NCBI RefSeq assembly: GCF_007655485.1
Contig: NZ_VJXQ01000002.1
Location: 153,436-217,435 of the forward strand
Length of the DNA stretch: 64,000 bases
Reading direction: 5' to 3'
Source of the DNA: Halobellus captivus
GTDB lineage: Archaea; Halobacteriota; Halobacteria; Halobacteriales; Haloferacaceae
The notes beneath the pieces are model-generated. The model saw only the letters and a list, made by a program, of their open reading frames with translations. It searched no databases and had not been told where the DNA came from. The translations under genes were made by a program, and so were the position numbers. Of this stretch, positions 21,757 through 40,685 are shown one piece after another; position 1 is the first letter of the stretch; each line of letters starts with the position of its first letter.

Positions 21757-22917
21757 ATGAGCGAGGACTTCTACGACGTCCTCGGCGTCTCCCGCGACGC
21801 CGACGAGGACGAGATCAAGAAGGCCTACCGAAAGAAGGCCGCAGAGTATCACCCGGACGTCTCCGAGGCGGCCGACGCCGAGGAGAAGTTCAAACAGATC
21901 AAGAAGGCCAAGGAGGTCCTCACCGACGACGAGAAGCGGCAGATGTACGACCAGCTGGGTCACGAGCGTTTCGAACAGGCCGAAAAGCGCGGCGGCGTCG
22001 GCGGCGGCGGTGGCGGTCGCGGACAGGGCAACCCCTTCGGCGGCATGGGCGGCGGCGGACAGGGAAATCCCTTCGAGGACATCTTCAGCCAGTTCTTCGG
22101 CGGCGGCGGGGGCGGCGGCAGACAGCGAAACCGCCCGCGTCAGGGACAGAACATCCGTACGCAGGTCACGCTCGACCTCGAAGAGGTGTTCGAGGGCGTC
22201 GAAAAGCAGTTCACGCTCACCCGCCCGGAGGAGTGTTCGGAGTGCGACGGCCGCGGTCACCCCGCTGAGGCCGACGTCAACACCTGTCCGGAGTGTAACG
22301 GCCAGGGGCAGACGACGACCGTCCGCGACACGCCGCTCGGCCGCGTCCAGCAGACGCAGACGTGTCGGCGTTGCGAAGGGACGGGAGAGACCTACAGCGA
22401 GACGTGCTCGGGCTGCGGCGGCGACGGCGTCACCCGCGAGGAGGCGACGCTCTCGGTCGACATCCCCGCGGGCATCCGTAACGGGCAGACGCTCCGGATG
22501 GAACGCGAGGGAGCGCCCGGCGAGAACGGCGGTCCGAAGGGCGACCTGCTCATCGACATCAACGTCCGTGACCACGACGACTTCGAGCGCGACGGCGACG
22601 ACCTCTATCACCGGCTCCCGATCTCGTTCCCGAAGGCCGTCTTCGGCGCGACCGTCGAGGTGCCCACGGTCGGCGGGACGACCGAACTGGAGATCCCCGC
22701 GGGGACCCAGAGCGGCGAGGAGTTCCGGATCCGCGACGAGGGGATGCCGCACCTCCGCGGGCGCGGCCACGGCGACCTCTACGTTCAGGTACAGATCGTC
22801 ACCCCCGAGAAACTCAACGAGGAACAGAAGGACGCGCTCGAAGCGTTCGCCGAGGCGGGTGGCGAGAGCGTCGAGATCAACGAGGGGTTCTTCGAGAAGA
22901 TCAAGAAATCGTTCTAG
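21757..22917 (+). CDS. dnaJ: Chaperone protein DnaJ (type I Hsp40)
   Basis: 386-aa co-chaperone that stimulates DnaK. The J domain is residues 1-70, with the HPD motif in AAEYHPDVSE. A Gly-rich region follows at about 78-130, then four zinc-finger repeats: CSECDGRG, CPECNGQG, CRRCEGTG and CSGCGGDG. The C-terminal substrate-binding domains are complete. dnaK and grpE are not adjacent here, although dnaJ commonly sits beside dnaK. ATG 21757 follows AT-rich sequence (TTGAAGTAGTTCAACCG). A T-run and a strong hairpin follow the stop. Confidence 0.97.
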   Translation: MSEDFYDVLGVSRDADEDEIKKAYRKKAAEYHPDVSEAADAEEKFKQIKKAKEVLTDDEKRQMYDQLGHERFEQAEKRGGVGGGGGGRGQGNPFGGMGGGGQGNPFEDIFSQFFGGGGGGGRQRNRPRQGQNIRTQVTLDLEEVFEGVEKQFTLTRPEECSECDGRGHPAEADVNTCPECNGQGQTTTVRDTPLGRVQQTQTCRRCEGTGETYSETCSGCGGDGVTREEATLSVDIPAGIRNGQTLRMEREGAPGENGGPKGDLLIDINVRDHDDFERDGDDLYHRLPISFPKAVFGATVEVPTVGGTTELEIPAGTQSGEEFRIRDEGMPHLRGRGHGDLYVQVQIVTPEKLNEEQKDALEAFAEAGGESVEINEGFFEKIKKSF

Positions 22918-37819: not shown

Positions 37820-37865
37820 TAAATCCCGCTTACAGTTCGCCGTAAATCCCGCTTACAGCTCGCCG
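37820..37865. repeat. 23-bp tandem duplication copying a gene end and stop codon
   Basis: TAAATCCCGCTTACAGTTCG... (37820-37842) is repeated at 37843-37865 with one mismatch. The second unit contains the last codons and stop (37853-37855) of the minus-strand CBS gene, so a second GEL-stop lies just beyond the first. Confidence 0.88.
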
Positions 37866-38998
37866 AGTTTCCGGATGAGCTGGCCGCGGTACTTCTCGTC
37901 GGCGTTGAGCCCCTTCAGTTCGAGGACGTTGCGCTCGAGTTTATCGAGCGCGACGTGGAACGCGTGTTCGGAGCCGTAGCCCTCGCCGCTCCCGGCGATC
38001 TGGCCGTGGCTGGTTCGCAGACGGATCTGACACTGGATGAGCGGCGTGCCGCGGAGCTTCTCTTTGTGCTCGTGGAAGCGGACGTGCGCGTGGAGCACCT
38101 GCATCTGCTGGTACTTGTCGACGACCGAGGTGATCGATTCGACGACCTCCGCGCGGGTGAGCGTCTCTAGGAGACTGACGTTCGTGATCTGGACGTCCAT
38201 ACTCTCCTCCTCGGTGAACGTCAGCGCGCGGAGGACGTCCGTCTTCGTCATAATCCCCTGGACGAGTCCGTCGTTCTCGTCTGGGGTCACGACGAGTCCC
38301 GAGATGTCGTTTTCGAACATCCGCTCGACCGCCTCGTCGACGGGTTCGGAGGGCGTCGCCGTGACGACCGGCGAAGACATCAGATCGTAGACGGGGAGAT
38401 CCAGCATCCGATCGAGGTCGCCGCGGCGGTCGCCGCGTCCCTGTCGGCTGTCGTCGCGGACGATGAAGTCGACGAGATCGTGCGTCGTGACGATCCCCGT
38501 GAGCTTTCCGCTGTCGTCGTCGACGACCGGTAATCGGGAGATTCCGTGTTCGCGGAGTTTGTTGATCGCCCCCCCGACGTGCGATTTCTCGGCGACGCTG
38601 ATGATCTCCTCGGACTGAATGTCCTCGACGGAGATCGCATCGAGATTCTCCAGGACCGCTTCGAGAATCGCGTCGCTGTTGATGACGCCGTAGAGCTTCT
38701 CGCCCTCGAAAACGGGGGCGATTTTCACGTCGCCCTCGACGAGCATCCGCGCGACCTCGCGAACGTCCTCGTGGCGGTCGACCCGCGGTGCCGACTTCAT
38801 CACGACGGAGGCTTTCGTGTCGTCCTCCATCCGGGATCGGACGAGTTGCTTCTCGCCGATGATCCCGGCGTAGTCGCCCCCCTCGGTGACGACGATTCCA
38901 CGGGGGTTCTCGCGCTCGAAGATGGCGCGGATTTTCCCGAGGCGTTTGTCGACGTCGACTTCGACGAAATCAGGAGTGGCAATATCAGTAATATCCAT
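37853..38998 (-). CDS. Four CBS domains fused to a ribosome-hibernation-factor-like domain
   Basis: 381-aa protein. Four CBS modules span about 1-57, 68-117, 125-182 and 207-270 (for example DLMSSPVVTATPSEPVDEAVERMFENDISGLVV). The C-terminal 273-381 (VQITNVSLLETLTRAEVVESITSVVDKYQQMQVLHAHVRFHEHKEKLRGTPLIQCQIRLRTSHGQIAGSGEGYGSEHAFHVALDKLERNVLELKG) resembles the HPF/YfiA fold. CBS domains bind adenine nucleotides, so nucleotide-sensed control of a ribosome-binding module is the natural hypothesis. Start ATG 38998 (MDITDIATPDFVEV); the 67-codon upstream extension lacks similarity. Confidence 0.82.
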   Translation of the reverse strand: MDITDIATPDFVEVDVDKRLGKIRAIFERENPRGIVVTEGGDYAGIIGEKQLVRSRMEDDTKASVVMKSAPRVDRHEDVREVARMLVEGDVKIAPVFEGEKLYGVINSDAILEAVLENLDAISVEDIQSEEIISVAEKSHVGGAINKLREHGISRLPVVDDDSGKLTGIVTTHDLVDFIVRDDSRQGRGDRRGDLDRMLDLPVYDLMSSPVVTATPSEPVDEAVERMFENDISGLVVTPDENDGLVQGIMTKTDVLRALTFTEEESMDVQITNVSLLETLTRAEVVESITSVVDKYQQMQVLHAHVRFHEHKEKLRGTPLIQCQIRLRTSHGQIAGSGEGYGSEHAFHVALDKLERNVLELKGLNADEKYRGQLIRKLGEL

Positions 38999-39214
38999 AG
39001 TGGGAGTCGCCTCCAAACTGGGGATACGCTTGCTGCCGTCTTGAAACTTCGTCCCATTTTCGACTCGCTGGGTCCGTCGACACCGACTGGCTGTCATCTC
39101 CGACTGGAGGCCGCCGCGGCGGTAATCGGTTTCTCCCCCGACAGTTCCCGATCGACGGATACGTCGGAAGATTCCACGTACGGGTCGGGGATGGCGCACC
39201 TGTATATGAGTGGT

Positions 39215-39961
39215 TCAATCGTCCGCTCGCGCTCTCTCGAACTGCTCTGCGGGGAGCCGAAGCTCCGCCAACCCGGGGAGCTTCTCGATGTTGAACACGA
39301 CCTTCAGGTCGTCGGTGACGGGCGTTCCGATGCAGGAGAGCCTGACTCCCTGTTCTTTCATCTCGTCGGTCAGGATCGTGCTCACGGGCATCTCCACCTC
39401 ACCGTCGACGACCGCGACCGCGCAGTTCGCACACGCCCCGCCTCGGCAGGCGTAGGGCCACGAGAACCCGTATCGCTCGGCGGCTTCGAGCAGGCTCTCG
39501 CGTTCCTCGACGACCAGCAGTCCGTAGCTGTCGACGTCGAGGTCGGCGGCCTCGGCCTTCTCGAAGAGGTCCTCGTCGGTGAGTTGCCAGCCGTGCGTTT
39601 CGAGCACCTCGTAGTCGAGGTACTGAACGGTCGGGCCGAGGGAACCGCGGTTCTCGGTCCCCTCCGTCCCTTCAGACTGGCCGTTGCGGGCGCGTGATTC
39701 CCGAGCGCTGCGAGCGGAGCGTGAAGAATCGCTGCCTCCGCGCGTCGGGGAACGGCGAGAGCGGCGTCTCTCACTGGCCTCGAACGTCGATGGGTCGCGA
39801 CCGCTGGTGATGTGCTCGTATGCGCGGCGGACGCGCTCGAACTCTTCGAGCGATCCGTCGTGGTCGGGATGGGCGTCCTTCACCCGATGGCGGTACGCCC
39901 GAACGACCGCGTCTTCGTCGGCGTCGGCGTCGATCCCCAGTACGTCGTACGGCGACTCCAC
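39215..39961 (-). CDS. J-domain fused to halophilic 2Fe-2S ferredoxin
   Basis: 248-aa protein. Residues 1-60 are a J domain (MESPYDVLGIDADADEDAVVRAYRHRVKDAHPDHDG) with HPD at 31-33. Residues about 61-108 are a Ser/Arg-rich linker. Residues about 110-248 are a plant-type ferredoxin of the halophilic kind, with the acidic helical insert before the core and the cluster ligands CRGGACANC plus a distal Cys in RLSCIGTP. It is probably cytosolic. The J domain could recruit DnaK to cluster assembly or tie the electron carrier to a chaperone. Single continuous frame, no frameshift. Start at 39961. Confidence 0.9.
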   Translation of the reverse strand: MESPYDVLGIDADADEDAVVRAYRHRVKDAHPDHDGSLEEFERVRRAYEHITSGRDPSTFEASERRRSRRSPTRGGSDSSRSARSARESRARNGQSEGTEGTENRGSLGPTVQYLDYEVLETHGWQLTDEDLFEKAEAADLDVDSYGLLVVEERESLLEAAERYGFSWPYACRGGACANCAVAVVDGEVEMPVSTILTDEMKEQGVRLSCIGTPVTDDLKVVFNIEKLPGLAELRLPAEQFERARADD

Positions 39962-40052: not shown

Positions 40053-40685
40053 TTACGATCGACCGGGGAAGTCGACGTACGATGCGAGCGTCTCACTCGC
40101 GTTACGGGTGACGGAGGATCCGTGGAACACGAGCGCGGCGTCGAACTCGTAATCGAGCAGTTTGTCGAGGTTCATCTCCGCCTCGTGGACGTCTTCGGAG
40201 AACGCCGCTGGCGGCGGGACGAGATAGCCCGCCGGGAGGCCACGTCGGTCCGAGCCGAATACCGCGTCGCCCATCACTGCCACACCCGTCCGCTCGTTTA
40301 CCAGCGCGTGGTTGTCCGCTCTGTGGCCCGGAACGTGGACCGGAGCGAACTCGCCGATCGACGTGCCCTCGGTGTACCGATGGTCCGGATCGTTTTCGAA
40401 CTGGCTCGCGTCCGTCTGCTCCGGGACCCACGTCTCGACGCCGAGCGCGTCGACGAGAGCGTCGAATCCGTCGATGTGGTCGTGATCGCCGTGCGTGATG
40501 ACCAGTCGTTCCGGCCGAATGCCGATTTCCTCGACCGCGTCGACGACCCGATCGGTGGTCTCCTCGAATCCCGTGTCGATCAGCGTCGGCGTATCGCCGT
40601 CGAACAGATAGACGCGGAACCGACCGCCGGAGGGTCGGGTTTGAGTCGTGATGTCGTACACGCCGGGGACGATCTCTTCGAACAT
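40053..40685 (-). CDS. Metallo-beta-lactamase fold hydrolase
   Basis: 210-aa MBL-superfamily protein. VYLFDGDTPTLIDTGFEE precedes the metal motif THGDHDHIDG (HxHxDH form), VHVPGHRADNHALV supplies a further His and VMGDAVFG an Asp. The last ligand is probably in VFHGSSVTRNA. This is the glyoxalase II/lactonase-like branch; the substrate is unknown. Start ATG 40685. It is followed on the opposite side by the tRNA-Val gene. Confidence 0.9.
   Translation of the reverse strand: MFEEIVPGVYDITTQTRPSGGRFRVYLFDGDTPTLIDTGFEETTDRVVDAVEEIGIRPERLVITHGDHDHIDGFDALVDALGVETWVPEQTDASQFENDPDHRYTEGTSIGEFAPVHVPGHRADNHALVNERTGVAVMGDAVFGSDRRGLPAGYLVPPPAAFSEDVHEAEMNLDKLLDYEFDAALVFHGSSVTRNASETLASYVDFPGRS

Follow-up and report, generated by a model that had tools for sequence, protein, structure and literature searches.

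A J domain–[2Fe-2S] ferredoxin fusion protein maintained in many haloarchaea and its possible role in bringing DnaK to redox or Fe-S partners

Here we show that one gene of Halobellus captivus encodes an N-terminal J domain joined by a variable linker to a haloarchaeal plant-type [2Fe-2S] ferredoxin, and that this fusion (J-Fer) is real, not a misassembly, and has been retained by selection across many related archaea. Our preferred model, which we hold tentatively and short of calling it probable, is that J-Fer acts as a type III J protein that would use its ferredoxin domain to bring the single DnaK to redox or Fe-S partners.

Results

Architecture of the fusion protein

Within the window, that is, the whole 64,000-nucleotide stretch of H. 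captivus DNA analysed here, the open reading frame of J-Fer runs from the J domain to the ferredoxin without an intervening stop (Table 1), in agreement with the original prediction, which had been made from the DNA sequence. Both domains score above curated cut-offs, with residues 4-51 matching Pfam DnaJ (37.0 bits, cut-off 27.8), residues 151-211 matching Pfam Fer2 (53.3 bits, cut-off 21) and residues 111-234 matching the NCBIfam family NF041393, 'ferredoxin Fer' (174.3 bits, cut-off 150). The HPD motif that the prediction had called intact and the full set of cluster cysteines that it had listed are likewise in place, and the canonical DnaJ that it had put elsewhere, at 21.8 kb, is a separate gene with J, zinc-binding and C-terminal domains. 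Among solved chains, two haloarchaeal [2Fe-2S] ferredoxins, 1e0z (E 2.3e-39) and 1doi, are closest by sequence; their alignment spans residues 110-229 and includes the haloarchaeal N-terminal insertion. DnaJ and Fer2 are the only Pfam domains of J-Fer, the zinc finger and the DnaJ C-terminal domain being absent, and with its intact HPD the protein is, by domain content, of type III (class C).

An AlphaFold2 model built on a four-row alignment has helices at residues 4-8, 16-30, 38-52 and 57-68, with a 10-residue mean pLDDT of 67-89 over residues 1-60; from residue 69 pLDDT lies below 50 and the ferredoxin half has no confident fold, and the model is usable for the J domain only. Production of a free ferredoxin by internal initiation was considered and rejected for the H. 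captivus gene, in which there is no in-frame ATG, GTG or TTG between residues 80 and 115.

Table 1. Positions in the window of J-Fer, its parts and the separate DnaJ gene
Feature	Position	Strand	Basis or remark
J domain-linker-[2Fe-2S] ferredoxin fusion ORF (J-Fer)	39215..39961	-	248 aa, GTG start, stop included
J domain, residues 1-54	39800..39961	-	Pfam DnaJ and AlphaFold2 helices
HPD motif, residues 31-33	39863..39871	-	invariant in 79/79 intact genes
Variable linker, residues 55-109, Ser/Arg-rich in H. captivus J-Fer	39635..39799	-	pN/pS and alignment
Haloarchaeal plant-type [2Fe-2S] ferredoxin domain, residues 110-229, with N-terminal insertion	39275..39634	-	NF041393; 1e0z/1doi
Cluster ligand Cys172	39446..39448	-	invariant in 79/79
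Cluster ligand Cys177	39431..39433	-	invariant in 79/79
Cluster ligand Cys180	39422..39424	-	invariant in 79/79
Cluster ligand Cys210	39332..39334	-	invariant in 79/79
Conserved C-terminal tail, residues 230-248	39218..39274	-	lowest pN/pS of the four segments
Canonical DnaJ, separate gene	21757..22917	+	Pfam DnaJ, DnaJ_CXXCXGXG, DnaJ_C

Both domains are conserved and the linker is not

Across the 79 intact fusion genes, H. captivus included, HPD, the four cluster cysteines (pattern CX4CX2C...C), W168-P169 and the motif C-R-G-G-A-C are invariant, and the loss of HPD in homologs that the original prediction had named as one possible refutation was not seen. The basic residues of helix II of the J domain are kept in nearly all of these genes (R24 in 77, R26 in 78), and the tail residues L234, L236 and P237 are nearly invariant; in 22 of the 79 alignment rows, which start at an internal codon, residues 2-6 are gapped. 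Residue 35 (39857-39859, minus strand), beside the HPDH stretch, is Asp in H. captivus versus Gly in 77 of the 79.

In 15 genes of the genus, pN/pS, taken as a pooled pairwise Nei-Gojobori count in which synonymous sites are partly saturated, was 0.22 for the J domain, 0.78 for the linker, 0.19 for the ferredoxin and 0.15 for the tail. The J domain, the ferredoxin and the tail are under purifying selection within the genus and the linker is nearly free, and the low values in the two domains with a high value between them indicate that both domains are selected and that the linker serves as a tether. As aligned in the 79 genes, linkers are between 17 and 76 residues long. Its predicted Ser/Arg richness holds for the H. 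captivus gene (12 Ser and 13 Arg in 55 residues) but not for the family, in which only two of the 79 linkers, that of H. captivus being one, are more basic than acidic; as such, it is a local oddity without general meaning.

The fusion is widespread but patchy

A survey of the architecture across Halobacteria, which had been proposed together with the original prediction, found the fusion gene in 67 of the 97 sampled genomes of the class, bearing out the prediction that the J domain is not a misassembled neighbour and running counter to the other refutation named with it, absence of the fusion from all relatives combined with evidence of a sequencing join. Among the relatives it was present in 26 of 40 genomes (its own genome counted), and in the class and relatives samples combined in 80 of 120. 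One of the 67 class genomes, a draft (G044), carries a gene (L127) whose frame breaks just past HPD, between 3624 and 3626, which is either a sequencing error or a pseudogene. By family label, the fusion was found in 36/36 class genomes of f1, 13/17 of f4, 7/12 of f12, 3/23 of f7 and 8/9 of the others. Since it is missing from 30 of the 97, including 20 of the 23 genomes of f7, it is not needed by the whole class.

A failure of search sensitivity is unsupported as the cause of absence in the 40 fusion-negative genomes, as the best profile match per genome reached at most 188 bits among the matches listed, whereas the 16 J-Fer matches of the phylum search scored 252-353 bits. Among the matches listed, these best matches were ferredoxin-only, with the exceptions of G063, in which the match crosses a stop and extends upstream as far as model position 33, and G033, in which it was J-only; eight of the 40 genomes do not reach the quality standard applied (90% completeness, 5% contamination). 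In the phylum sample, 125 of 148 genomes gave no hit with an E-value of 1e-25 or lower, a threshold that distant fusions could escape, and kinship is given for 20 of these 125, namely G033 (same order) and 19 labelled 'same phylum'. A pattern-based scan of named genomes returned three Halobellus loci.

Fusion genes were hand-picked from matches reaching about query residue 240, plus controls, and 100 regions were compared (80 J-Fer, 5 HTH-Fer and 15 free Fer). Two genes (L128, L133) have LA in place of LS or LT before the fourth cysteine; they fall outside the motif pattern and were included via tblastn.

Origin of the fusion and its sister fusions

A phylogeny was computed for 102 ferredoxin domains, two outgroups included, under LG+G4 with 1000 ultrafast bootstraps. 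It separates the 80 J-Fer ferredoxins from every other sequence (UFBoot 93), and they do not group with the free-standing electron carrier. Together with the ferredoxins of five HTH-Fer proteins, they split from free Fer and the two outgroups (UFBoot 98). These supports are those of unrooted splits, and the value of 26 that the rooted printout shows on the 80 J-Fer is taken as a label shifted by re-rooting. J-Fer and HTH-Fer also have an ELRLP-like tail in common that is absent from free Fer, and C-R-G-G is found in 80/80 J-Fer versus C-R-A-G in 15/15 free Fer. The grouping of the ferredoxin halves (support 93) makes a single fusion event the most likely origin, and the simplest story would be one fusion onto a tailed duplicate of Fer, followed by loss or transfer.

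HTH-Fer, in which tandem HTH-like segments (Pfam matches below cut-off) replace the J domain, was found in five of the 97 class genomes (L136, L139, L144-L146; for example L139:3327-4124, plus strand) and is possibly a ferredoxin-based transcription regulator. Usp-Fer, with two universal-stress-protein domains and a ferredoxin (L171-L176; for example L171:1041-2249, minus strand), is full length in six of the 97, the search having returned 12 matches of which six cover the Usp part only; six genes were fetched, and both of the two scanned contain Pfam Usp and Fer2. The HTH-Fer model was built on its same five genes and the Usp-Fer model on five of its six, and the searches added one gene. Because its tails look like those of free Fer, Usp-Fer probably arose separately from J-Fer.

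Genome setting

The H. captivus genome contains five J-domain ORFs, namely the canonical DnaJ, L002 (J domain only in Pfam), the small L003 and L005, and J-Fer, whose J domain is nearer to that of L003 (59% identity, 49.4 bits) than to that of DnaJ (32%, 35.1 bits). One Hsp70 was found in the genome, which together with the kept basic residues of helix II makes recruitment of DnaK by J-Fer plausible. Apart from J-Fer, the genome has one standard Fer of the NF041393 family (222.8 bits) and two weaker 2Fe-2S proteins. The fused ferredoxin shares 51% identity with this free Fer over 123 residues. Because the genome has this standard Fer as well, the fused copy is unlikely to serve as the bulk carrier. 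The genome also encodes a 2Fe-2S protein with a hydrophobic N-terminal stretch that is perhaps membrane-anchored (L008, C18:29864-30088).

Neighbouring genes were compared by clustering ORFs of at least 90 aa in flanks of about 3.6 kb to either side of the 79 fusion genes, a procedure that smaller or fast-evolving neighbours would escape; ORFs overlapping the fusion were excluded, including clusters of 76, 45 and 30 loci recognised by position as such frames. No widely shared neighbour was found in these flanks, the widest family covering 5 of 31 genera and 6 of 79 loci, nor was there a cross-genus neighbour linking J-Fer to Fe-S assembly, and the commonest neighbour, a CBS gene, occurs at 13 of the 79 loci, all inside the genus. 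Thus, no operon backs any guess at the client, and operon context was set aside as a functional clue.

In H. captivus, the gene downstream of J-Fer (37853-39199, minus strand) has four CBS stretches by Pfam, and the C-terminal part of its product resembles a ribosome hibernation factor by eye, with phmmer matches to PDB 9l96 and 9sr9. A metallo-beta-lactamase-type neighbour stands beside J-Fer (40053-40685 in the window) and another beside L002, the latter an ORF with an HxHPDH-type stretch by eye. For hvo_1040, a DnaJ-domain gene of Haloferax volcanii that adjoins a metallo-beta-lactamase gene and that we do not equate with J-Fer, it has been proposed that higher expression leads to hypochlorite tolerance (PMC6267482; this and the other papers given by PMC number are cited for the parts available to us).

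Discussion

The combination of a J domain and a ferredoxin is known from plants and Thaumarchaeota, and the haloarchaeal fusion is, on domain evidence, a parallel solution built on a [2Fe-2S] domain of the plant type. A 2012 survey called the DnaJ-Fer association specific to Thaumarchaeota and Viridiplantae, marked its ferredoxin by CXXCXXC (CXXFXXC in two species) and gave an inter-domain region of 54-92 aa for the thaumarchaeal proteins (PMC3564930). Like J-Fer, the DnaJ-Fer proteins, including CDJ3-5 of Chlamydomonas and DJC76/77/82 of Arabidopsis, have an N-terminal J domain, a ferredoxin and a variable inter-domain region. However, their ferredoxin is of the bacterial CXXCXXC type, whereas that of J-Fer, with its CX4CX2C...C spacing and its Fer2 and NF041393 matches, is not. 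CDJ3 and CDJ4 of Chlamydomonas are reported to bind a [4Fe-4S] cluster and to interact with ATP-bound HSP70B (PMC6006212; see also PMC9407819), whereas the plant-type [2Fe-2S] domain of J-Fer belongs to the haloarchaeal Fer family. Because a different type of ferredoxin is used, haloarchaeal J-Fer would represent a separate invention that is convergent with DnaJ-Fer and not a member of it. Free haloarchaeal Fer (1e0z, 1doi) belongs to the same family as J-Fer over residues 111-234 and has the same four cysteines and N-terminal insertion, but differs in lacking the C-R-G-G-A-C motif, the C-terminal tail and the J domain.

Some haloarchaeal genome annotations, we presume, already name such proteins DnaJ/ferredoxin fusions, and the architecture is thus probably known to annotators. 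In the literature searched we found no description of a haloarchaeal J-[2Fe-2S] fusion and no experiments on J-Fer. The available parts of PMC3564930, PMC8928951, PMC11430716, PMC9407819, PMC6006212, PMC3720927, PMC5992828, PMC4284462 and PMC6267482 do not mention the haloarchaeal fusion, and the words 'ferredoxin' and 'DnaJ' are absent from the main text, as available, of a survey of composite genes in haloarchaea published in 2018 (PMC5992828).

In the model that we tentatively favour, the N-terminal J domain would dock DnaK and trigger ATP hydrolysis, and a flexible tether of unconstrained sequence would join it to a ferredoxin that presumably carries its [2Fe-2S] cluster. The ferredoxin domain and the conserved tail would together form a targeting arm that binds redox or Fe-S partner proteins, to which DnaK would be brought for repair, remodelling or cluster handling, and the cluster would be needed for partner recognition. 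CDJ3/CDJ4 and Fed7 may serve as the best analogies for this mechanism. Fed7 of Synechocystis interacts in a two-hybrid assay with the DnaJ-like protein Sll1384 (PMC4284462), so that a ferredoxin is paired with a J protein as in J-Fer, although the two are encoded by separate genes and the ferredoxin is Fed7-like. The change C53S lowered the two-hybrid signal from 1081 to 346 units and the triple change C53S C56S C59S gave 413 units, with a background of 74-82 (PMC4284462). The CXXCXXC spacing suggests that these three residues are the cluster cysteines, and as the mutants bind well above background, the cluster does not seem to be strictly required there. For CDJ3-5, a review suggests protection of photosystem II instead (PMC6006212).

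The ferredoxin might instead be a sensor and not a targeting arm, with the redox state of the [2Fe-2S] cluster, or its loss, altering J activity or partner binding, such that DnaK would be deployed under oxidative or metal stress. We regard this redox switch as possible but rather doubtful. It would agree with the invariance of the cluster ligands in 79/79 genes and with the attachment of the same ferredoxin module to tandem HTH-like segments (5/97 genomes) and tandem Usp domains (6/97), and the change from the C-R-A-G of the free carrier to C-R-G-G may alter the properties of the cluster; however, the linker lacks any conserved sequence by which such a switch could be relayed.

HscB/Hsc20, which like J-Fer is a J protein linked with Fe-S proteins, has a C-terminal scaffold-binding domain and no ferredoxin. 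A comparable function of J-Fer, passing clusters from an IscU/NifU scaffold together with DnaK, appears unlikely. Although one NifU_N/IscU-type protein is encoded in the genome and chloroplast J-ferredoxins have been discussed as Fe-S assembly co-chaperones (PMC9407819), the HscB C-terminal domain was not found in J-Fer (Pfam and NCBIfam, E up to 0.001), none of the 79 loci points to a widely shared neighbour, and the presence of the fusion is patchy.

It is more improbable still that the J domain brings DnaK only to assist the folding or loading of its own ferredoxin, with the latter working as an ordinary specialised electron carrier. The ferredoxin half is indeed complete and conserved, but free Fer is made without any fusion, as seen from a strong match in 29 of the 30 fusion-less class genomes (E 2e-49 or better), the thirtieth, G033, having only weak free-ferredoxin matches among the matches listed. 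Finally, an artefact, whether a sequencing join, a pseudogene or the chance retention of a J domain, for which the one frame-broken gene among 80 could be cited, can be ruled out with near certainty, given 79 of 80 genes intact across separate assemblies, the conservation of HPD, and a J segment about as constrained as the ferredoxin segment (0.22 versus 0.19).

The use of the ferredoxin module may extend beyond chaperones, as the HTH-Fer and Usp-Fer fusions suggest a wider regulatory role for it. Here we speculate, as a doubtful reading, that the haloarchaeal [2Fe-2S] ferredoxin might be a plug-in redox sensor on at least three output modules, namely the J domain for DnaK recruitment, the tandem HTH-like segments for possible DNA binding, and tandem Usp, with J-Fer as a [2Fe-2S]-gated recruiter of DnaK convergent with the [4Fe-4S] J-ferredoxins. 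If so, the coupling of Hsp70 to ferredoxin would have arisen at least twice. An independent fusion with another type of ferredoxin argues that selection favours such coupling. For the chloroplast and thaumarchaeal versions, the available parts of PMC3564930, PMC9407819 and PMC6006212 leave the function unsettled. J-Fer offers an archaeal example, open to experiment in haloarchaea with established genetics, for the question of why Hsp70 co-chaperones join ferredoxins.
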